Shown here: positions 786-40,442 of the stretch, piece by piece | How the letters are laid out: each line of letters begins with the position of its first letter | Numbering within the stretch: position 1 is the stretch's first letter | Assembly: GCA_021851875.1 (NCBI GenBank) | Contig: JAJZQI010000004.1 | Span: forward strand, 1-64,000 | Reading direction: 5' to 3' | Source of the DNA: Pseudomonadota bacterium | GTDB taxonomy: Bacteria > Pseudomonadota > Gammaproteobacteria > Burkholderiales > JAJZQI01 | DNA length: 64,000 nt | Translations under genes and position numbers: made by a program | Notes under the pieces: model-generated | Databases searched by the model: none | Seen by the model: only the letters and a program-made list of their open reading frames with translations | Told to the model about the DNA's origin: nothing

Positions 786-1451
786 TTAGGGGTTGGGCGC
801 AATGCCCAATTCTTTTCGAAAACGCATTGTGATGCGTCGAAGCGCAGGCTCAATTGAGGCCTCATATGTGGCTATTAGGTTTTTCCGTTCCTCCTCAGTC
901 TTCTCAAGAATTACATCAATGGGCCAATCTTCGGCTCGGCCTTGCCGGATTGGGACGAGAACTTCAGCGACAGACATCCCGCATGTCCTTGCCAGGGCTC
1001 CCAGCTCTTCATATAACTCTGCATCTATGTAAATGGCATTGTCGGCAAGCGCTTTATGAAAAGTTATGCTTGCTTTGTGGGCCATCTCGCATAGGTTCGC
1101 GTAGAAGTTCACGTGCTCCACATTGTCAACATTGCGTAGAGGGGACTCATTGATAATTTTTGTGACGGGAGTAACCCAAGACCGGATTGCTGCATATATA
1201 GCGTGAATGGCTTGAGCGCGTTGTGCATCCACACGTGAAACCGCGACGTTTTGTTCATGTGCAAAGATGCCAAGCTGTGTTTTTAGAACATCAGCTCGCT
1301 CAGTGAGATGCGCTTCATGTTCTTTGAGCGCTTTGGTAAGTTGGTGCTCAATGAACCACTTTGACAGCAATTTCACTGAGGCGACCGCTGCAGCTGTCCC
1401 GCCAAATGCGCCAAATAGAAAAGACATCGTTTCAGAATATATGGGACCCAT
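786..1451 (-). CDS. Hypothetical membrane-anchored coiled-coil protein
   Basis: The product has 221 residues. An N-terminal hydrophobic segment (about residues 8-27, Gly/Ala-rich) is followed by a long helical region (about 30-85) with coiled-coil character and then a helical soluble domain. No catalytic motif is visible. The gene starts only 14 bp after the stop of hheA and is on the same strand, so it is probably cotranscribed with it. Topology suggests an N-in, membrane-tethered cytoplasmic protein. Function is unknown; a role in the defence locus is inferred from position only. Confidence 0.7.
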   Translation of the reverse strand: MGPIYSETMSFLFGAFGGTAAAVASVKLLSKWFIEHQLTKALKEHEAHLTERADVLKTQLGIFAHEQNVAVSRVDAQRAQAIHAIYAAIRSWVTPVTKIINESPLRNVDNVEHVNFYANLCEMAHKASITFHKALADNAIYIDAELYEELGALARTCGMSVAEVLVPIRQGRAEDWPIDVILEKTEEERKNLIATYEASIEPALRRITMRFRKELGIAPNP

Positions 1452-1465
1452 GGCTTGCCTTCTAT

Positions 1466-4400
1466 TTATCTTGGGAGGCTAACGAAACCATCCATGAATT
1501 TCACTAGTCCTTTTGCTTTTCCAGCTTGAAGTGCCAGAGTAATTTTTGCCTCGGCATCAGATGTAGTGCGGGCAATTCTCTGAAGGCGGCAAATGGTTCT
1601 AGCTAGTTCACTGATGCTGGTTGTCCCATGCTCTGACAGGATAAAAATTGCCAAATTTGCAAGCTCTTCCTGGCAAATCTCATTGAGCGGGCGCTTACTA
1701 GCATCACAGTCGTTTGCAACTCTGAAGTCTTGCCATTGCTCAGGATGAGTCGATTCTGGCCAGTAGTAAGTTACATCTCCTTCAAGGGTTTTGACGAATG
1801 CTCTAGGGATAAGGGAGCTAAGCAGTTCTTCAATACGGCTTCCGGTTCGAGTCAGCCCCCACGCTCGTGCTACTCTGCGGAAAAGAACTGTATCTCTAAT
1901 CGGCCCCTCTTTATTGATTACGTCTGACAGTTGTCCTGCGAGAATTTGCCGTGACTCATGGTCGTAGAATTGTTCTGGATTCTTGCCCACAATTTCGGCA
2001 ATACTGTAGGTAGGCAATTTCTGCTCTGGCACCATTTCAGGTTGAACCATCTTTGCATAAACAGCCTCAGCAACTTCTGGTTCGTTGTTATCCTCGACTT
2101 CGGTGCTGGTTTCATCTGCTTCATTAGCGTGCGAGGGTTCTACAGTCAGAAGTTGCTCAAGCTTTTCCTGAATCCTTCGCATTGGCTCGCTGGGGTTACG
2201 CCACCAATCAGTTGACCAAATCCTATGTAATTTCCAACCAAGGCTTTCCAGAACCAAATGACGCAAGCGGTCACGGTCACGAGCGGTGGCTGCAGAATGA
2301 TAAGTAGCCCCATCGCACTCAATGCCGAGCAAATAGCGACCAGGGGCGCGTGGGTCGACTACGCCGATGTCAATGCGGTAGCCTGATACACCCACCTGAG
2401 GATGAACAGTCCAGCCTTTCTCGCGCAGTTGGTTGATAACTTGTTTTTCAAATGGGCTATCAGGCTCCAATCCAGTTGGATTGATTTGTTCTACAAGTGC
2501 ACGATGTCCGCGAATGGCAAAATCGAGGTAGTTTTTGAGGTCTCGAACGCCTGCTGCACGCACGCGCGATAGGTCAATCTGTTCCGGCATCAGTGTGCTG
2601 AAGATAACTACGCCTTGTCGTGCGCGGGAGACCGCTACGTTAAGCCGGCGATGGCCTCCCTCAAGATTCAATGGACCAAAATTCAGGGCAACCTTACCTG
2701 CTGCATCAGGCCCATACGTAATTGAGAAATAGATAATATCTCGTTCATCGCCCTGAACGTTTTCGAGGTTTTTGATAAACAGCGGTTCGATAGATGCTTC
2801 TGCAAGCGCCTGGTCTAGCTTGGTAGATTCGCGGCGACGAGCATCCAGAAGATTTTCAATCAGTTTTTGCTGCGCTTGGTTAAACGTGACTACACCAAGA
2901 GACTGTTTCTTACCCTCTGGTGAGAGATAGTGTTTTTCGATGGAAGCAACAATCGCTTCTGCTTCTGCTCGGTTTGTACGTGAGCCGCCCCGGTCATATA
3001 CACCATGAACACGCTCGAAACGGACAGCAGTATCTTCTGTAACGGGGGAGGGGAATGTAATAAGTCGATTGTCGTAGTAGGTTACGTTACTAAAGGTAAT
3101 CAGGCTTTCGTGCAAGCTACGGTAGTGCCAATCCAATCCTAGTGTGGGCAGGCCAATGCTGAGACACTCATCAAGAATGCTTTCGAGGTCTTGTACTTCG
3201 TCCTCTCCAGAGGCGTCATCCTCATCAACTCGGTTGAAAAAGTTGGTCGGTGGGAGTTGTTTCGGGTCGCCAACACAAACAAGCTGTTTCCCTCGCGCAA
3301 TGGCCCCAACAGCATCCCAAACAGGAATTTGAGATGCTTCGTCAAAGATGACTACATCGAATGGCCGATGACCAGCTTCGAGGTACTGTGCGACAGATAA
3401 CGGGGACATGAGCAGGCATGGCTTCAGTTTTGGCAGAAGTGTTGGTAGGCCTTGAACAAGTTGGCGGATAGGGGCTTGTTTTCTTTGTTTTGCTAGCTCC
3501 CGACGGAGCTTTCCCATTTCCGAGTCAGCTCCAGGCGTAAGCGCAGTGCTTGAGGGAATTTGACCGGACAGCTTGGCAGCGACGTACTGCTGGGTTAATT
3601 TCTGGAATCGCTCATCAGATTCATTAAACTCGGCAATTTTTCTTTCGTGGTCGGCACTGGAAAATGAACAAAGTACCGGTTCTCGGTCCATGGCCTTGCG
3701 AACCCACCAGCTCCGATAGGCGTATTCAAAAAATTCCGCAATATTTGCGAGCGCCACCTCACCGGCTTCAAGCGAACGAACAACGCCAGTCAAGCCGTTA
3801 CTGATAGCTTTTTCTCTGTTGTTTTGCCAGAGGCACCATGGCTGAATTTGATGTGCTGCATGCTGCCAGGCCTGCAACGAAGAGAGAAGACGTGTGATTG
3901 CACCAGCAGCGTGCGGTTCCTCAATAAAAGAGTCCTTTGCTCCACTCAGTTCTGCAACTCGATGTGCCTCGCTCACAAGTTGCCGGTATGCGTCACGGAA
4001 ACGAACCAAGGCCCCTCCTAAAGCGCCATCTGCTCTAAGCATCGCTCGATTCTCAGTGATGTATGGCAGAAGCTTACTTTGCAGTGTGCCTTGAAGAACA
4101 GCATCGCCGGCAGCTAATTGCACCAAGGAGTCTGAATATTCTGTCGCCCACTTCTCATGTGCATCTACGTTATTCCAATCAGTTTTGTGCGCGTTGAACT
4201 CGTCTTGCAGAAGTGCTATTGCCTCGGCTTCCATGGCCGCCAGAGCCTTATCTTCCTCGTTCAGTTTGCGCAGTGCTGCGATGAGTGCATTAACGTCATT
4301 TTCGCTGGGTGCTTTGCGGTCTGTTCGGTAAAGACCAAAGCGCTTTGTGCATGCCCGTTTGGCAAACCAACTTTTGGGCCACCAAGTGCTGTTCGCTTCA

Positions 4401-14220: not shown

Positions 14221-14849
14221 AAACCCAGCTGTGCGTCGTGCGCCATGGCGAGACGGACTGGAATGTCGCCCGGCGCATCCAGGGGCAAACCGACATTCCA
14301 CTCAACGCCACCGGCCGTGCCCAGGCGCTAGCCATGGCCTACAATGCCGGCCACCACCATTTCCAGGCGCTATTCAGCAGCGATTTGAGTCGAGCCCGCG
14401 ACACCGCGCAGGCACTGGCCGATCATCTGGATTTAAAACTCGAAACGACAGCCGGCCTGCGCGAACGCCATTACGGCATTTTCCAGGGCATCACGGCCGA
14501 TGAAGGCGCCCGGCGCTATCCGGATGCCCACGCGCATTACATCCAGCGCGACCTGCACTACGATTTTGCAACCGGTGAGAGCCTGCAGGACTTTGCCGCG
14601 CGTATCCGGCAAAGTCTGGACTGGATTGTGCGCCACCACACCGGCCAAACGATTGCCATCGTCACGCATGCCGGCGTGCTGGACATCCTTTACCGCCAGG
14701 CAACCGGACGGCCGCTGGAAACAGCCCGGGATTTCCTCATCCCCAACTGCGCCCTTAACTGGTTTCATGTCGATGGACAGGGACTGCACCTGGAAAAATG
14801 GGCCGACCGCCACCATCTCACCCAGGTACTGACCGAAACACCCGAATAG
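14217..14849 (+). CDS. Histidine phosphatase family protein (GpmB/CobC-like)
   Basis: This 210-residue branch-1 histidine phosphatase has the RHGE motif (His10), the second-Arg region, ERHYG near 82 and a late THAG histidine. Its start codon overlaps the stop of the NikR-like gene by 4 bp (ATGA), indicating translational coupling. Relatives act on phosphoglycerate, cobalamin phosphate or other phosphoesters. The substrate here is not known. Confidence 0.82.
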   Translation: MKTQLCVVRHGETDWNVARRIQGQTDIPLNATGRAQALAMAYNAGHHHFQALFSSDLSRARDTAQALADHLDLKLETTAGLRERHYGIFQGITADEGARRYPDAHAHYIQRDLHYDFATGESLQDFAARIRQSLDWIVRHHTGQTIAIVTHAGVLDILYRQATGRPLETARDFLIPNCALNWFHVDGQGLHLEKWADRHHLTQVLTETPE

Positions 14850-14857
14850 GCACTGCC

Positions 14858-15553
14858 ATGGATGCCCAACTGGTTCTTCTGCGTCACGGCCACAGCGAAT
14901 GGAACATCAGCAACCGTTTCACCGGCTGGACCGACATTGTCCTTACCGAACAGGGCCTCGCCGAGGCAACCCAGGCGGGGCGTCAGCTGGGCGAAGCCGA
15001 CTGGCGTTTCGACGAAGTCCATCTTTCCCTGCTGCAACGCACGCGCCAGACCGCCGAAACGCTGTTGCAGGCGATGCAGCATCCGCCGGTTCCGCTGTTC
15101 GCCAGCTGGCGCCTGAACGAGCGCCACTACGGCGCGCTGCAGGGTCTCGACAAGCAGGCGATTTTCACTGCCTGGGGCGAGGAACAGTCGTTCAAATGGT
15201 GGCGCGGCTACGCCGAGCGTCCGCCCGCCCTGGCCTATGACGACCCGCGCCATCCGCGTTTCGACGCGCTGTATCGGCAGCTTCCCGCCAAGCATTTGCC
15301 GGCAACGGAAAGTCTGGCCGACTGCCAGCGACGCCTGCTGCCCTACTGGCATGACACCCTGCTGCCGCGGTTGCGGGCGAACCGGCGTCTTTTAGTCGTC
15401 AGCCATGGCAACACCTTGCGCGGCCTGCTCATGCACCTGCAAAAACTCACCGCCAACGAAGTCGAACGCCTGGAAATCCCTGCGGCCGCTCCGCTGTTCT
15501 GCCGCCTGGACGACCATGGCGAACTGCTGGATATCCGCAGCGACTCGGCCTGA
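14858..15553 (+). CDS. gpmA: 2,3-bisphosphoglycerate-dependent phosphoglycerate mutase
   Basis: The 231-residue product interconverts 2- and 3-phosphoglycerate. It shows LLRHGHSEWN (catalytic His10), FTGWTDI, NERHYGALQG and VVSHGNTLRG, all typical of GpmA. The start at 14858 puts the RHG motif at the family position; the open frame extends further upstream without homology. It follows the other histidine phosphatase by 8 bp. Length is slightly shorter than E. coli GpmA (250). Confidence 0.88.
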   Translation: MDAQLVLLRHGHSEWNISNRFTGWTDIVLTEQGLAEATQAGRQLGEADWRFDEVHLSLLQRTRQTAETLLQAMQHPPVPLFASWRLNERHYGALQGLDKQAIFTAWGEEQSFKWWRGYAERPPALAYDDPRHPRFDALYRQLPAKHLPATESLADCQRRLLPYWHDTLLPRLRANRRLLVVSHGNTLRGLLMHLQKLTANEVERLEIPAAAPLFCRLDDHGELLDIRSDSA

Positions 15554-33223: not shown

Positions 33224-33349
33224 ACCGGGACAGGAAGTGCGCAAGCCGCGCCAAGTCTTAAGTTCCATTAATATACCGGCCGCATCGCGCATCAGGCATG
33301 GCTTTTGCGATGTTGCGCCTGTTCATCGCATTTTGTTTCTGGATCAAAC

Positions 33350-34618
33350 ATGAATACTGCACCACACAGGCTCAAGCGCCTTTTGCACCTCTTGCCGGCG
33401 GGCATGGTGCTGGCGCTGTTGGCCTCACCCTTGCACGCCGCCTCGCTCACCCTGGATCAGGCGCTCTCGCTGGCGAAACAGAACAGTCCCCTGCTGCAAG
33501 CTGCCAAAGCCGGCCTGGAGGCCAGCCAGGCGGCGGCGCGAACAGCCAGCGCCTACCCCAATCCGGAGCTGGAAATCATGGGCGGACAAATTCGCCCGCG
33601 CCAAAGTCAAAACGGCGCGGAAACCACCCGCATCGACACCGCCACGCTGTCGCAGCCGCTGGAACTGCCCAATGTGCGTGCCGCGCGCAAACAAGTAGCA
33701 GCCGCCGGCATAGGCATCGGCCAGTCGCAATACGATCAGACCCGGCTCAACCTGATCAGCCAGATCAGGCTGGCTTTCTTTGACGCCGTCCGCTGGGAAG
33801 AAGCCAGCCGGGTCATCGGCGAGAACCGCGAACTGCTGCAGCAGATGCGTGACCGGGTAAAACTCAAGGTCAACGTGGGCGAAGCGCCGCGCTATGAATT
33901 GATCAAGGCGGAAGCCGAAACCCTGGCCGCCAATAACGCCCTGAAAAATGCCGAACTGCGCACCCGCCAGGCCAAAACCCTGCTGCGCAGCCTGATCGGC
34001 GCCCCCTTGCCGGACACGCTGCAACTGGAGCATCGCGAAACCACGCCCACGCAGCCGCCGTCGCTGGCGGAGCTGCAGCAGGAGCTGCTGCAAAACCATC
34101 CACAGCTGCATCTGGCCCAGGCACAAACCGAACAGGCCCTGGCCCGCGTGGATTACGAACGCAGCCAGCGCCTGCCGCAACCCACCCTCAAGCTGAACCA
34201 GGAACGCACCCGCGACAGCAACCAGTGGATGGTCGGCATCGCTCTGCCCTTGCCCTTGTGGAATCAGCGTTCCGGCCCCATCGGCGAGGCAGTGGCCGGC
34301 TTGCACCAGACCGAGGCCCAGGCGCAGCAGACCCGCCTGACACTAACGGCCGAACTGGAACAGGCCTACAGCCGTTATGAAATCGCTTCCAGCCAGGTAA
34401 AAACCTTCGAAACCGGTCTGCTGCAGGAAGCCGAGGCCGCCATGAAGGTGGCCGAGGCCGCCTACCGCTACGGCGAGCGCAGCATCCTGGACTACATCGA
34501 CGCCCAGCGCGTGCTGCGCTCGACCCAGCTGGAATTTCTCAATGCCCGTTATGAACTGCAAGCCGCACTGGTAGAACTCGAACGCCTGCGCGCCATCCCT
34601 GCCGGAGACCCATCATGA
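33350..34618 (+). CDS. CzcC/TolC-family outer-membrane efflux protein
   Basis: This 422-residue outer-membrane channel subunit has a signal peptide of about 30 residues (SPLHAA) and two outer-membrane-efflux domains of long helices (SLTLDQALSLAKQNSP, YRYGERSILDYIDAQR). It would trimerise and dock the RND pump. ATG 33350 gives a proper leader. Its stop overlaps the adaptor start by 4 bp. Confidence 0.87.
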   Translation: MNTAPHRLKRLLHLLPAGMVLALLASPLHAASLTLDQALSLAKQNSPLLQAAKAGLEASQAAARTASAYPNPELEIMGGQIRPRQSQNGAETTRIDTATLSQPLELPNVRAARKQVAAAGIGIGQSQYDQTRLNLISQIRLAFFDAVRWEEASRVIGENRELLQQMRDRVKLKVNVGEAPRYELIKAEAETLAANNALKNAELRTRQAKTLLRSLIGAPLPDTLQLEHRETTPTQPPSLAELQQELLQNHPQLHLAQAQTEQALARVDYERSQRLPQPTLKLNQERTRDSNQWMVGIALPLPLWNQRSGPIGEAVAGLHQTEAQAQQTRLTLTAELEQAYSRYEIASSQVKTFETGLLQEAEAAMKVAEAAYRYGERSILDYIDAQRVLRSTQLEFLNARYELQAALVELERLRAIPAGDPS

Positions 34619-35760
34619 AGTATGCATCGCCTTTATTGCTCAGCCTCGTTCTTGCCGCCGCCCTGACTGCCTGCGGCCACAAGGAGACGCCGCCTGCTGC
34701 GGGAGCGCAAACCGACCCCAATCTGGTCGCGGTGCAGCCCGATTTTCTCAAACGCCTGAAAATTGCTCCGGCCGGTGAAGGCAGCGCCGTCGACACACTG
34801 CGCGTGCCGGCGCGCGTGAGCGCCGACGAACGCCATATTGCCCGTATCGGCGCCGCCGTGACCGGACGCGTCGCGCAGATCCACGCCGGGCTGGGGCAGA
34901 AGGTCAAGGCCGGCGAGGTGCTGGCAACCCTGCACAGCACCGAACTGTCAGCCGCGCAGCTGGCATACCTGAAAGCGCTGTCGCAGGAAAACCTGCAACG
35001 CCGCGCGGTCGAACGGGCCAAACTGCTGTTCGCTTCGGATGTCATCAGCGCCGCCGAACTGCAGCGGCGCGAAAGCGAACTGGCGCAAGCCCAGGCCGAA
35101 CTGCAGGCCTCGCACGACCAGCTCAGCATTCTGGGCATGACCGAGAGCACCATCCGCACATTGTCGGCCAACGGCAATGTGCGCTCGCTGTCCGACGTGA
35201 GCGCCACAATCGACGGCCAGGTCATCGAACGCAAGATCACCCAGGGCCAGGTGGTGCAGCCGGCTGACGCCCTGTTCACCGTAGCCGACCTGTCGCATGT
35301 CTGGGTCGTGGCGGAAGTGCCTGAACAACAAGCCGATCTGGTTACCGTGGGCGAGGAGACCGAAGCGGAAATCGCCGCGCTGGGCGACCGTCGCATCGCC
35401 GGTCAGCTGATTTTCGTGGCCGACACGGTCAACCCGTCCACCCGGACGGTGACGGTACGCATGGACGTGCCCAACCCGGACCACAGCATCAAGCCGGGAA
35501 TGCTGGCCACCGTGCTGATCAAGAGCAAGCCGCGCCGCCAGCTGGTCATTCCTTCTGCCGCCATCGTGCGTGACGAGAACCGGGACTACGTTTTCGTCCA
35601 GAAGGATGCGCAGCGTTTCGTGCTGCGCAAAGTCACCCTGGGTGAAGAGAACAACGGCACCGTCCCGGTAGTTGAAGGTATCAAGAAAGGCGAAAACATC
35701 GTGATCGACGGCGCCTTCCACCTCAACAACGAGCGCCGCCGCAAAGAACTGGAGGGCTAA
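34615..35760 (+). CDS. Efflux RND periplasmic adaptor (CzcB type)
   Basis: This 381-residue membrane-fusion protein has a lipoprotein signal (LTACGHK, lipobox Cys near 20), lipoyl/barrel-sandwich halves around a helical hairpin (about 105-170), and beta-barrel and membrane-proximal domains. It links the inner-membrane pump to the outer-membrane channel and may bind the metal first. It shares a TAATG junction with the pump gene. Confidence 0.88.
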   Translation: MKYASPLLLSLVLAAALTACGHKETPPAAGAQTDPNLVAVQPDFLKRLKIAPAGEGSAVDTLRVPARVSADERHIARIGAAVTGRVAQIHAGLGQKVKAGEVLATLHSTELSAAQLAYLKALSQENLQRRAVERAKLLFASDVISAAELQRRESELAQAQAELQASHDQLSILGMTESTIRTLSANGNVRSLSDVSATIDGQVIERKITQGQVVQPADALFTVADLSHVWVVAEVPEQQADLVTVGEETEAEIAALGDRRIAGQLIFVADTVNPSTRTVTVRMDVPNPDHSIKPGMLATVLIKSKPRRQLVIPSAAIVRDENRDYVFVQKDAQRFVLRKVTLGEENNGTVPVVEGIKKGENIVIDGAFHLNNERRRKELEG

Positions 35761-38700
35761 TGTTAGAAGCCATCATTCGCGGGGCGCTCAAACAGCGCCT
35801 CATTATCGTGGTTCTGGCAGCCTGCGCGCTGTTCTTCGGCCTGCATGCCGCGCAGAACCTGTCGGTTGACGCCTTCCCCGACGTCACCAACGTGCAGGTG
35901 CAGATCGCCACCGAAGCCAAGGGCCGCTCGCCCGAGGAAGTCGAGCGCTTTGTCACCGTACCGCTGGAAATGGCCATGACCGGCCTGCCGGGACTGGAAG
36001 AGATGCGCTCGCTCAACAAGCCGGGGCTGTCGCTGATCACGCTGGTCTTCACCGATGCCACCGACGTGTATTTCTCCCGCCAGCTGGTCATGGAACGCCT
36101 GATCGAGGTCGGCGGCCGCATGCCGCAAGGCGTGACGCCGGTGCTGGGACCGGTATCCACCGGTCTGGGCGAGGTGTACCAGTACACGCTGGAAAAGCCG
36201 GATGACGGCGACAAGGCACTGAGCGAAGACGAGCTGACCCGCCGCCGCATCGCCCAGGACTGGGTGGTGCGCCCGCTGCTGCGCGGCATTCCCGGCGTAG
36301 CCGAGATCAACTCGCAGGGCGGCTTCGCCAAACAGTACCAGGTGCTGGCCAACCCCGACCGCATGGCGCACTACCATGTGACGCTGCAGGACGTGTACAA
36401 GGCATTGGCGCTCAATAACGCCAACTCCGGCGGCGGTATTCTGCCGCACTATTCGGAACAGTACCTGATCCGCGGGGTCGGCCTGATCAAGAACCTGGAC
36501 GACATCCGCAGTATCGTGCTGAAGGAACAGGACGGCGTGCCGGTGCTGATCCGCGACGTGGCCGAAGTGACCATCGGCCATGAAGTGCGGCAGGGCGCGG
36601 TGGTGAAAAACGGCGTGACCGAATCGGTCGGCGGCGTGGTCATGATGATGCGCGGCGGCAACGCCAAGGAAGTGGTCTCGCGCATCAAGCAGCGCGTGGC
36701 CGAAATCAACAGCAAGGGCATGCTGCCGGACGGTCTGCAGATTGTGCCCTACTACGACCGCAGCGAACTGGTTGACGCCGCCCTGCACACCGTCACCAAG
36801 GTGCTGATCGAAGGCGTGATCCTGGTGATCGTGGTGCTGTTCCTGTTCCTCGGCGATGTGCGCTCGTCCATCATCGTGGTCAGCACGCTGGTGCTCACGC
36901 CGCTGCTCACCTTCTTCGCCATGAACCAGATCGGCCTGTCGGCCAACCTCATGTCGCTGGGCGGGCTGGCCATCGCCATCGGCCTGATGGTGGACGGCTC
37001 GGTGGTGGTGGTGGAAAACGCCTTCAAGCAGCTGGCGCACAACAAGGGCCGCAGCCTGAGCCGTGTGCGCGTGGTGATGGAAGCGGCGGCGGAAGTGGGT
37101 ACGCCGGTGGTGTTCGGCGTTTCCATCATCATTCTGGTATTCCTGCCATTGATGACGCTGGAGGGCATGGAAGGCAAAATGTTTGCGCCATTGGCCTTCA
37201 CCATTGCCATTGCCCTGGCGATTTCGCTGCTCCTGTCGCTCACGCTGACGCCGGTGCTCACCTCTTATCTGCTGCAAGGCAAGGAAGAGCATGACACCCG
37301 TCTGGTGGCCGCCCTCAAGCGGCCGTACGTGAAACTGCTGGATGCCGCGCTGCGCAACCCGCGCAAGACGGTGATCGCCGGCGTCGGAACGTTTGTCGGT
37401 GCGGTACTGCTGCTGCCCTTCCTGGGCACGGCGTTCATTCCGGAAATGAAGGAAGGCTCGATCGTACCGGGTATCAACCGTGTCCCCAACATCTCGCTGG
37501 ATGAATCCATCAAGATGGAGCAGGAAGGCATGCGGCTGGTGATGCAGGTGCCCGGCGTGAAATCCGCCGTGTCCGGCGTGGGCCGCGGCGAAAGCCCGGC
37601 CGACCCGCAGGGGCAGAACGAGTCCACGCCGATTGTCAGCCTGAAACCGCGCGACGCGTGGCCCAAGGGCTGGACGCAGGACGACATCGCCGAAGCCATT
37701 CGCGCCAAACTGCAGCAATTGCCCGGCGTGCAGGTCGTCATGGCCCAGCCGATTTCCGACCGGGTGGACGAGATGGTCACCGGCGTGCGGTCCGACGTCG
37801 CCATCAAGGTATTCGGCGATGACCTTGAAGAACTCAAGCGCAAGGCCGACGAAATCGCCAAAGTGGCCAGCACCATCCGGGGTGCGCAGGATCTGCGGGT
37901 AGAGCGCGTCACCGGCCAGCAGTACCTGACCATTGAGATCGACCGCCAGGCCATTGCCCGCTACGGCCTGAACGCCTCCGACATTCACGACGTGATCGAG
38001 GCGGCCATTGGCGGCAAGGAGGCCACCGACATCTACGAGGGCGAGCGCCGCTTCAGCGCCACGGTGCGCCTGCCGGAAGCCTTCCGTAACGACATCGGCA
38101 CCATCCGGAAACTCCTGGTCACCTCGCCCAACGGCGCCCAGGTGGCGCTGCAGGATCTGGCCCGCATCGAGCTGACCGATGGTCCGGCGCAGATCAGCCG
38201 CGAACTGGGCAAACGCCGCATCGTGGTCGGCATCAACGTCAAGGATCGCGATCTGGGCGGCTTTGTGGCCGAGCTGCAAAAGGCGGTCGAACAGAAGATC
38301 AAACTCAAGGAAGGTTACTATCTCGAGTGGGGCGGCCAGTTCCAGAACATGGAACGGGCCATGGGGCACCTGATGATTATCGTACCGATCACCATCGCGG
38401 CGATTTTCTTCCTGCTGTTTCTGCTGTTCAACTCGCTGCGCTATGCCAGCCTGATCATTCTGGTACTGCCCTTCGCCTCCATCGGCGGGGTCATTGGCCT
38501 TTTTCTCACCGGCGAATACCTGTCGGTGCCCGCCTCGGTCGGCTTTATCGCCCTGTGGGGGATTGCGGTGCTCAACGGCGTGGTGCTGGTATCCTATATC
38601 CGCAGCCTGCGGGATGACGGCATGAGCCAGGACGAAGCCGTCCGGCAGGGCTGCCACGAGCGTTTCCGGCCGGTGCTGATGACCGCCACCGTCGCGCTGC

Positions 38701-38861
38701 TGGGTCTGATCCCGATGCTGTTCGCCACCGGCCCGGGCTCGGAAGTGCAACGCCCGCTCGCCATTGTGGTGATTGGCGGCCTGGTCACATCCACGTTGCT
38801 CACGCTGATCGTGTTGCCGACCCTGTATAAATGGTTCGAAGAAAAGCACTACGAAGCTTAA
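35760..38861 (+). CDS. CusA/CzcA-family heavy-metal efflux RND transporter
   Basis: This 1,033-residue inner-membrane proton/metal antiporter has twelve membrane helices and two large periplasmic loops. The helix-4 region reads GGLAIAIGLMVDGSVVVVEN: the second Asp and Glu of the CzcA proton relay are kept, but the first Asp of the DFG motif is replaced (AIG). This places it in a side branch of the heavy-metal group rather than canonical CzcA. The exported metal cannot be told from the sequence. A PII-like gene follows by 9 bp. Confidence 0.9.
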   Translation: MLEAIIRGALKQRLIIVVLAACALFFGLHAAQNLSVDAFPDVTNVQVQIATEAKGRSPEEVERFVTVPLEMAMTGLPGLEEMRSLNKPGLSLITLVFTDATDVYFSRQLVMERLIEVGGRMPQGVTPVLGPVSTGLGEVYQYTLEKPDDGDKALSEDELTRRRIAQDWVVRPLLRGIPGVAEINSQGGFAKQYQVLANPDRMAHYHVTLQDVYKALALNNANSGGGILPHYSEQYLIRGVGLIKNLDDIRSIVLKEQDGVPVLIRDVAEVTIGHEVRQGAVVKNGVTESVGGVVMMMRGGNAKEVVSRIKQRVAEINSKGMLPDGLQIVPYYDRSELVDAALHTVTKVLIEGVILVIVVLFLFLGDVRSSIIVVSTLVLTPLLTFFAMNQIGLSANLMSLGGLAIAIGLMVDGSVVVVENAFKQLAHNKGRSLSRVRVVMEAAAEVGTPVVFGVSIIILVFLPLMTLEGMEGKMFAPLAFTIAIALAISLLLSLTLTPVLTSYLLQGKEEHDTRLVAALKRPYVKLLDAALRNPRKTVIAGVGTFVGAVLLLPFLGTAFIPEMKEGSIVPGINRVPNISLDESIKMEQEGMRLVMQVPGVKSAVSGVGRGESPADPQGQNESTPIVSLKPRDAWPKGWTQDDIAEAIRAKLQQLPGVQVVMAQPISDRVDEMVTGVRSDVAIKVFGDDLEELKRKADEIAKVASTIRGAQDLRVERVTGQQYLTIEIDRQAIARYGLNASDIHDVIEAAIGGKEATDIYEGERRFSATVRLPEAFRNDIGTIRKLLVTSPNGAQVALQDLARIELTDGPAQISRELGKRRIVVGINVKDRDLGGFVAELQKAVEQKIKLKEGYYLEWGGQFQNMERAMGHLMIIVPITIAAIFFLLFLLFNSLRYASLIILVLPFASIGGVIGLFLTGEYLSVPASVGFIALWGIAVLNGVVLVSYIRSLRDDGMSQDEAVRQGCHERFRPVLMTATVALLGLIPMLFATGPGSEVQRPLAIVVIGGLVTSTLLTLIVLPTLYKWFEEKHYEA

Positions 38862-38870
38862 GGAGGTCTC

Positions 38871-39203
38871 ATGAAAGAAATCAAAGCAGTGATTCAGCCG
38901 AACCGGCTCACCCGGCTACGCGATGCCTTCCGGGAAGTGCAGAACTTCCCCGGCATGACCATCATCAAAGTGCAAGGCTGCCGCCAGCACAGCGGCGTGG
39001 AACGACATGACTCGATCAAGGAAGAGCTGACGGATTTTTCCGACAAGATCAGGCTGGAAATTCTGGCGGAAGACCACCAGGTCGATGAAATCGTCCGCGT
39101 TATCCATGCCGCCACCCACACCGGCCAGGCCGGCGATGGGCTGGTGTGGGTGACCGACGTGCTGGAATTGAAGCGCCTGTGTCACCCCGCCGCGGACAAT
39201 TGA
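38871..39203 (+). CDS. PII-NG-type PII signalling protein
   Basis: This 110-residue PII-fold protein starts MKEIKAVIQPNRL, with GLVWVTDVLELKRL near the C-terminus. The T-loop (VQGCRQHSGVER) lacks the uridylylated Tyr51 of GlnB. This matches the PII-NG group, described as encoded beside heavy-metal RND pumps and thought to serve metal rather than nitrogen homeostasis. AAGGAGG upstream is a strong ribosome-binding site, and it belongs to the efflux operon. Confidence 0.87.
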   Translation: MKEIKAVIQPNRLTRLRDAFREVQNFPGMTIIKVQGCRQHSGVERHDSIKEELTDFSDKIRLEILAEDHQVDEIVRVIHAATHTGQAGDGLVWVTDVLELKRLCHPAADN

Positions 39204-39287
39204 GCGATGATACCCGCCGGTTAAGTCTGGGTTAATTCTCGCCGTGCAACACTTGTTTTTGCACCAGAACAGGGTCAAAAATTTGCG

Positions 39288-40442
39288 ATGCACGGCAATC
39301 ACAATTTCACGCACCGCCTTGCCGCCACCAGTGGCGGCATCGCTCTTTATGGCGCCACCCGCGTGCAGGCCGAGCAGGCCCACGAAGCCATGCTTGCCTA
39401 CCTGGACAGCCTCGGGCTGGCCGATCTTGTCCAAGCGGAATCCCTCGCCTCTGCAAGCCGCAACGGCACCCGCTATTGCCTGACGACACGCTACGCCGGC
39501 TGGTGCGCCCCCGGCTATGACACGCTGCAATTACGCCGTCAGCTCGATCTTAACCCGCACAACGACCCGCAAGACCGGCAAAGGGAAATCATGCTCAGCC
39601 TGCTGCTGGGTCCGCTGCCGTTCGAGTTTCCCAGTCATGCCGAACTGATGTCGGCCGTGCGCATGCGCCAGCGTATTGTCGAAGCCGGTTACAAAACGGC
39701 CATGAACTTCAAGACGGAAGAAGCCGACCGGCCTGAAGAATACTGGCGTTATGACGAGGACACCGGCTTCACCCTGAAACCGGGCACATCCCTTATTACC
39801 GCGCTGCAAATGGCCACTCAGCCGGCGCACTCCGGCCGGCTGTACGCCTTCTCCTGCTACCGCGCCACCGAATACGTCATCCTGCTGGGCATCGCGCAGG
39901 AGCTGGCGCACTGCAACCCGGCCCTGCTGGAGCGGCTGCAGCGGCAGTGGGAAACCCGCGCCATCATGTCGGCCAAGTTTCACGACAGCTTCCTGCGCGA
40001 ATACGGCTCGATGGAACAGCCCTTGCCGCCCTGTTATTACGTGCCCGGCGACCGGCTGTGGTTCCGCAACCCCGACGCACTGTCGTCAGACGTGACCGGC
40101 TATGAGGGATCGTGGGTGGTGTATCTGGGCAACGGCGAATTCACCCGCTTCTGGCGGCAAGGCAAACCCTACTCACTGGCGGAAAAATGTATCGAGCTGT
40201 ACCACTGGCGGCACGGCGTTTACCGCGACGGCGGCGGCACCTTGCGCATGAACGAAGACACCGTGGCCGAACTCACCCGGCGCGATCTGAACGACCCGCT
40301 GGCAACCGAATTGATTCTGCAACGCATGATGCGTTACCGCGACCCGTCCGGCACCTACCGCCAGGGCGGCTGCATCGACACTACCCGCGAACAGCCCCGC
40401 TGGATCCATCCGGAAACCAGCGACCTGCTGCTGCCGCAATAA
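39288..40442 (+). CDS. Tgl-like protein-glutamine gamma-glutamyltransferase homologue
   Basis: The 384-residue product resembles the Bacillus spore-coat transglutaminase Tgl over residues about 112-295. Matching blocks are FPSHAELMSAVRMRQRIV, YWRYDEDTGFTLKPG, LYAFSCYRATEYVILLG, YYVPGDRLWFRNPD and WVVYLGNGEFTRFW. The nucleophile Cys is kept as Cys190, but the two Glu that assist it in B. subtilis (Glu115 and Glu187 there) align with Ser189 and Ser275. An extra N-terminal region of about 110 residues and a 90-residue C-terminus are unique. It follows the PII-like gene by 84 bp; no signal peptide is seen. Confidence 0.72.
   Translation: MHGNHNFTHRLAATSGGIALYGATRVQAEQAHEAMLAYLDSLGLADLVQAESLASASRNGTRYCLTTRYAGWCAPGYDTLQLRRQLDLNPHNDPQDRQREIMLSLLLGPLPFEFPSHAELMSAVRMRQRIVEAGYKTAMNFKTEEADRPEEYWRYDEDTGFTLKPGTSLITALQMATQPAHSGRLYAFSCYRATEYVILLGIAQELAHCNPALLERLQRQWETRAIMSAKFHDSFLREYGSMEQPLPPCYYVPGDRLWFRNPDALSSDVTGYEGSWVVYLGNGEFTRFWRQGKPYSLAEKCIELYHWRHGVYRDGGGTLRMNEDTVAELTRRDLNDPLATELILQRMMRYRDPSGTYRQGGCIDTTREQPRWIHPETSDLLLPQ

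Follow-up and report, generated by a model that had tools for sequence, protein, structure and literature searches.

The window analyzed here, a 64,000-nt stretch of contig JAJZQI010000004.1, contains an open reading frame of 384 amino acids whose product belongs to the TGL family (Table 1). The TGL gene starts 84 bp after the PII gene of a czcCBA-PII operon and lies on the same strand. The PII-family gene (38871 to 39203), located directly behind czcCBA, scored under the GlnB/GlnK equivalog cutoffs, and its product is presumably one of the PII proteins that belong to metal transport operons. Neither a sigma-70-like promoter nor an intrinsic terminator was found on the plus strand between the PII and TGL genes.

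Table 1. Features at and around the TGL gene (positions in the window)
Feature	Position	Strand	Description	Basis
czcC, czcB, czcA and PII-family gene	33305..39203	+	Adjoin the TGL gene; adjacency not conserved	Profile identity; locus comparison
Upstream element	39220..39255	+	Conserved with the same-genus gene; TTAA-N7-TTAA direct repeat at 39221-39235; putative regulatory site	Sequence comparison
TGL gene	39288..40442	+	PF20085 (TGL) protein of the cyanophycin-linked subfamily, 384 aa	ORF; Pfam E=1.2e-35; AlphaFold mean pLDDT 92.8; PDB fold match to Tgl 4p8i
N-terminal domain	39336..39482	+	Beta-alpha-beta-beta, residues 17-65; not in Bacillus Tgl, also in the secreted sister clade	Secondary structure of models
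Ser189-Cys190 codons	39852..39857	+	Tgl Glu115-Cys116; nucleophile retained, helper Glu gone	Alignment of 57 relatives
Glu273-Gly274-Ser275 codons	40104..40112	+	Ser275 = Tgl Glu187 and Glu273 = Tgl Arg185, both 57/57	Alignment
Arg287 codon	40146..40148	+	Asn in all 50 cytosolic relatives, Asp in the 7 secreted ones	Alignment

The original prediction had described the protein as a homolog of the Bacillus spore coat transglutaminase Tgl, and both the sequence searches and the predicted fold bore this out. The Pfam TGL model covered residues 91 to 357 with a score of 123.4 bits (curated cutoff, 23.7), and phmmer searches with the protein retrieved two Bacillus Tgl chains of known structure, 7c9j (1.8e-8) and 4p8i (9e-4). 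With NF002869, the equivalog model for the spore coat transglutaminase Tgl, it scored 44.5 bits, which is under the curated cutoff of 307. An AlphaFold model was obtained from 49 sequences (pTM 0.93), and a Foldseek search against the PDB returned Tgl 4p8i as the single significant match (E=1.1e-8, probability 1.00, TM score of 0.64 by target length). Cys190 opens the central helix of the model (residues 190 to 209), as expected for a member of the Tgl fold. The reference sequence of Bacillus subtilis Tgl was identical to 4p8i along its whole length except for one residue. In addition to the fold, the Pfam family and the catalytic Cys, the window protein shares W153 and the PGD..NP block with B. 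subtilis Tgl, but it carries an additional domain at the N terminus (residues 17 to 65) and, beyond approximately residue 345, a conserved C-terminal segment; the extensions that had been predicted for both ends are thus real. The host also agrees with the predicted nonsporulating lineage: no SpoIVA gene was found in the window genome by a search that detected SpoIVA in the B. subtilis control. Comparison with the gene of a congener (locus L028) indicated purifying selection (dN 0.18, dS 0.84, dN/dS 0.22).

The active site was examined in a residue alignment of 57 relatives, 50 of them cytosolic and 7 secreted. Cys190 aligned with Tgl Cys116 and was invariant in all 57, and the same held for its neighbor Tyr191. 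Neither a deviating fold nor a variable Cys190, the two outcomes that would have contradicted the original prediction, was observed. The position of Tgl Glu115 was occupied by Ser in every cytosolic member and by Gly in every secreted member, the position of Glu187 was Ser throughout (57/57), and His200 of Tgl was not conserved. The predicted retention of the Cys and replacement of both assisting Glu by Ser (Ser189 and Ser275) were therefore confirmed, with the loss of His200 as an additional change. In Tgl, Cys116 pairs with Glu187, and Glu115 can replace Glu187; the E115A, H200A, and C116A mutants lose all activity, while E187A retains about 60% (PMC6490927). The product of the TGL gene is thus a distant, rewired relative of the spore coat enzyme. 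Arg185 of Tgl, which is located at the front tunnel entrance on the docking side of the acyl donor substrate (PMC6490927), is exchanged for Glu273, and this Glu was invariant in 57 of 57 relatives. Glu273 precedes Ser275 by two residues at the beginning of one strand, and it is therefore the best candidate for an acid of shifted position that would act in catalysis or substrate binding. Migrations of catalytic residues and the replacement of histidine by Ser or Thr are on record for the papain-like superfamily (PMC10318531).

Loss of the helper residues from all members could also mean that the fold was kept in an inactive protein with a binding or regulatory role in the cyanophycin system described below. 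The window copy, which departs from the clade-invariant columns at 1 of 62 positions (Asn287 to Arg) and is the only copy to do so, would fit such a role. However, Cys190 and Tyr191 have been maintained in 57/57 proteins across the deep split between cytosolic and secreted members, which is not expected for a dead site, and we regard an inactive binder as quite improbable.

The adjacent metal efflux/PII operon had been put forward as the genomic context of the protein. This adjacency is real, and the short distance and shared strand would fit a component of the czc/PII operon with no tie to cyanophycin. The implied link was not supported by other loci. At L028, the locus from the same genus, PII is missing upstream even though the directly upstream element and the downstream lipoprotein/MlaD genes are retained, and neither PII nor CzcA was present in the examined flank of any other TGL locus. 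Membership of the TGL gene in the czc/PII operon was therefore rejected; the adjacency is incidental, and a function in metal efflux or PII signaling without a connection to cyanophycin is highly improbable.

Instead, the survey of homologs and their neighbors identified the cyanophycin system as the conserved partner. Cyanophycin is a nitrogen storage polymer. Among 25 relatives across GTDB species, 11 TGL genes were located inside a cluster with cphA' and cphA that also comprised genes for a CphA-associated ABC transporter (NF052233) and a DUF1854 protein (NF052234), both of which are labeled cyanophycin associated in NCBIfam; a profile search found no such NCBIfam family for the TGL protein. 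Beyond these 11, contiguity with cphA/cphA' was also observed at L080, L083, and L084. At L003, the sequence ATGA holds both the stop codon of cphA and the start codon of the TGL gene, and this overlap suggests translational coupling of the two genes. The genomes of the remaining 14 relatives all encoded cphA elsewhere (14/14, a set that partly overlaps the genome survey described below). This is also the arrangement in the window genome, where cphA, cphA', and the ABC transporter and DUF1854 genes are found on another contig and the TGL gene is outside the cph cluster.

Two further observations were made at these loci. A gene for an acyltransferase-3 membrane protein adjoins the TGL gene at L005 (4681 to 5787), L006 (4863 to 5876), and L010 (4820 to 5935), with PF01757 detected in L005 and L010; at L010, it is inserted between cphA and the TGL gene. 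The motif Cx19HxxEH, known as the primer-making motif (PMC9262961), was present in CphA' and lost from CphA in every pair that was read fully (L078, L103, L003, L010, L080, L084, and G000:C38 of the window genome). This distribution suggests that the two synthetases may divide their labor. A primer-making role for the TGL protein was considered and is unnecessary, since CphA' carries the motif.

To quantify the association, 399 genomes of the window's order were surveyed; TGL hits were present in 39 and CphA in 146. CphA was encoded by 37 of the 39 genomes with any TGL hit (p=1e-15). Clade statistics leave out genomes G674 and G719, which contain other types of TGL protein. For the linked clades, CphA was found in 36/37 genomes compared to 110/362 genomes without the TGL protein (Fisher p=2e-16, with kinship ignored). 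The single exception was G518, where the clade member is cut by a contig end and CphA is absent. When the secreted clade was considered alone, CphA was present in 9 of 9 survey genomes. Counting genera for all TGL hits resulted in 23/25 versus 40/134 (p=5e-9), the genus being the level to which the kinship correction reaches. In the betaproteobacteria that encode it, the protein is found almost exclusively alongside the cyanophycin synthesis genes. Based on clustering and co-occurrence, we consider a functional link of the TGL protein to cyanophycin very likely. The protein was present in only about a quarter of the CphA-bearing genomes of the order and is therefore not essential to cyanophycin metabolism. 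It differs in this respect from the NF052233 transporter and the NF052234 protein, which likewise travel with CphA/CphA' as accessory genes but accompany nearly every pair examined. Our search of the open literature, with subscription papers outside its scope, retrieved no paper that links cyanophycin to a transglutaminase or Tgl.

A possible trace of shared regulation was detected in the upstream element, in which the TTAA-N7-TTAA repeat lies 52 bp before the TGL start codon and is shared with the congener. In both the window genome and the congener, which contain 19 sites each, a pair of overlapping sites of this form lies just upstream of cphA'. The form was chosen after it had been sighted upstream of the TGL gene, and a region of this kind would contain a site by chance in approximately 1% of cases; putative coregulation of the TGL gene and cphA' through this repeat is therefore suggestive only.

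Transglutaminase chemistry proceeds from a side chain carboxamide via a thioester to an amine (PMC6490927), and cyanophycin presents an amide on every aspartate side chain in the form of beta-Asp-Arg (PMC10206079), which makes it a natural substrate for a transglutaminase-type enzyme. We propose that the cyanophycin system with two synthetases (CphA/CphA') may have gained a cytosolic Tgl-fold enzyme as an accessory. In this enzyme, Cys190 would attack the carbonyl of a side chain amide to form a thioester. The likeliest acyl donor is cyanophycin through its beta-aspartyl-arginine isopeptide, which is chemically analogous to the glutamine side chain. The acyl group would then pass to an amine, leading to cross-linking, side chain exchange, or anchoring of the polymer, and in part perhaps to water. 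Glu273 at the front tunnel mouth may bind the cationic substrate or assist Cys190; as an acidic residue in place of Tgl Arg185, it would suit an arginine-rich substrate. Since an amide-rich polymer coincides with an acid at the substrate entrance, a cytosolic, Cys-dependent enzyme that transfers acyl groups on cyanophycin or its granules is the function that we favor, tentatively and at close to even chances. Its parts differ in strength: given the link to cyanophycin, the protein likely acts through the chemistry of Cys190, and it seems reasonably probable that the acyl donor is the polymer and not a protein. The narrower version, in which the rewired enzyme would cross-link, decorate, or anchor cyanophycin via its beta-aspartyl-arginine side chains and the secreted sister would act outside the cytoplasm, is conceivable but rather doubtful. 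Several points speak against this proposal: the Tgl residues besides Cys that are important for activity (Glu115, Glu187, and His200) are all missing, most CphA-bearing genomes of the order do without the protein, the gene is outside the cph cluster in the window genome, and the window protein alone has Arg287 where its cytosolic relatives have Asn. The original prediction had offered either a protein cross-linker with altered chemistry or a different acyl transfer enzyme; altered chemistry agrees with family, fold, and residues, and the evidence leans to the latter of the two options.

Like Tgl on the spore coat, a protein cross-linker would connect Gln with Lys, here in proteins of cells that produce cyanophycin, whether these proteins are bound to the granules or not. 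The protein shares the fold and nucleophile with Tgl, and an insoluble granule is a plausible analog of a spore coat. However, Glu187 and His200 are gone together with Glu115, whose exchange for Ala abolishes Tgl activity, and apart from the cph genes no conserved protein partner was seen next to the TGL gene. We thus regard protein cross-linking as unlikely.

A hydrolase that cuts the isopeptide or the backbone of cyanophycin could mobilize the polymer where cyanophycinase is missing. No cyanophycinase was found in the window genome, known cyanophycinase was absent from 35 of the 37 genomes with both TGL hits and CphA, and papain-like folds are mostly hydrolases (PMC10318531). However, CphA genomes without the TGL protein also mostly lacked cyanophycinase, with no significant difference between the two groups, so a general replacement of cyanophycinase by the TGL protein is not supported. 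Furthermore, the Cys of Tgl is insulated in a tunnel, which favors transfer over hydrolysis (PMC6490927). A hydrolase is therefore improbable, and we continue to prefer an enzyme that transfers acyl groups on the polymer or its granules.

Cyanophycinase and isoaspartyl dipeptidases differ from the TGL protein in fold and chemistry. They are comparable to it in their accessory role in cyanophycin metabolism and are often clustered with cphA (PMC10206079). Clusters with two cphA genes and without cphB have been described (PMC10687191). Bacteria with CphA/CphA' are mostly without a recognized cyanophycinase, and an enzyme with a conserved Cys that accompanies their synthetases constitutes a concrete, testable candidate for processing of the polymer. 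The Tgl family is known, and its Pfam model already covers the window protein; the open literature searched contains no description of the rewired subfamily, of its occurrence in bacteria that do not form spores, or of its connection with cyanophycin. The protein is probably an undescribed cyanophycin-processing enzyme and not a spore or metal resistance protein. The findings place Tgl-like proteins outside spore formers, where the Tgl fold was apparently reused with a different active site. If the enzyme modifies the polymer, this would add a new enzymatic step to storage polymer metabolism and could be of use for modifying cyanophycin, a polymer of industrial interest.

In the phylogenetic tree, the cytosolic clade (51 rows) and the secreted clade (7 rows, with N-terminal hydrophobic leaders) each formed one branch, with supports of 96 and 99, respectively. 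Both stand apart from Bacillus Tgl and from other gammaproteobacterial TGL proteins, and their deeper placement is unsure because of long branches. Other gammaproteobacterial PF20085 proteins (L039 to L041 and L043) share the family and have the Cys in the same position, but they carry Asp or Glu ahead of it and fall outside both cyanophycin-linked clades. The N-terminal beta-alpha-beta-beta domain is common to both clades in AlphaFold models, of which the secreted one reached a pLDDT of 59.5 and was too poor to be included in the fold search. Members of the secreted clade (L091, L093 to L097, and L089 at 14233 to 15498) display a Gly-Cys-Tyr motif, leaders, and an invariant His347 (L097 numbering). 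The window genome contains one cytosolic and one secreted TGL copy. The latter (G000:C35, 27.3 to 28.5 kb; L002 at 1369 to 2510, minus strand) is split over two reading frames, with the leader and N-terminal domain in one and the catalytic part in the other, due to either a frameshift or an assembly error.

Treating all TGL hits as one linked family was rejected on account of the two other types. In G719, a proteobacterium, the TGL protein (L100, 2374 to 4041) is secreted, contains a GEN motif, and belongs to the canonical Glu-Cys type. The G674 protein (L099, 3551 to 4891) is longer: its N-terminal part resembles DUF4157, and it ends in a canonical TGL domain that has kept the GEN and GH motifs of Tgl. 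It is followed by another protein whose N-terminal part is similar, an arrangement reminiscent of polymorphic or injected proteins.
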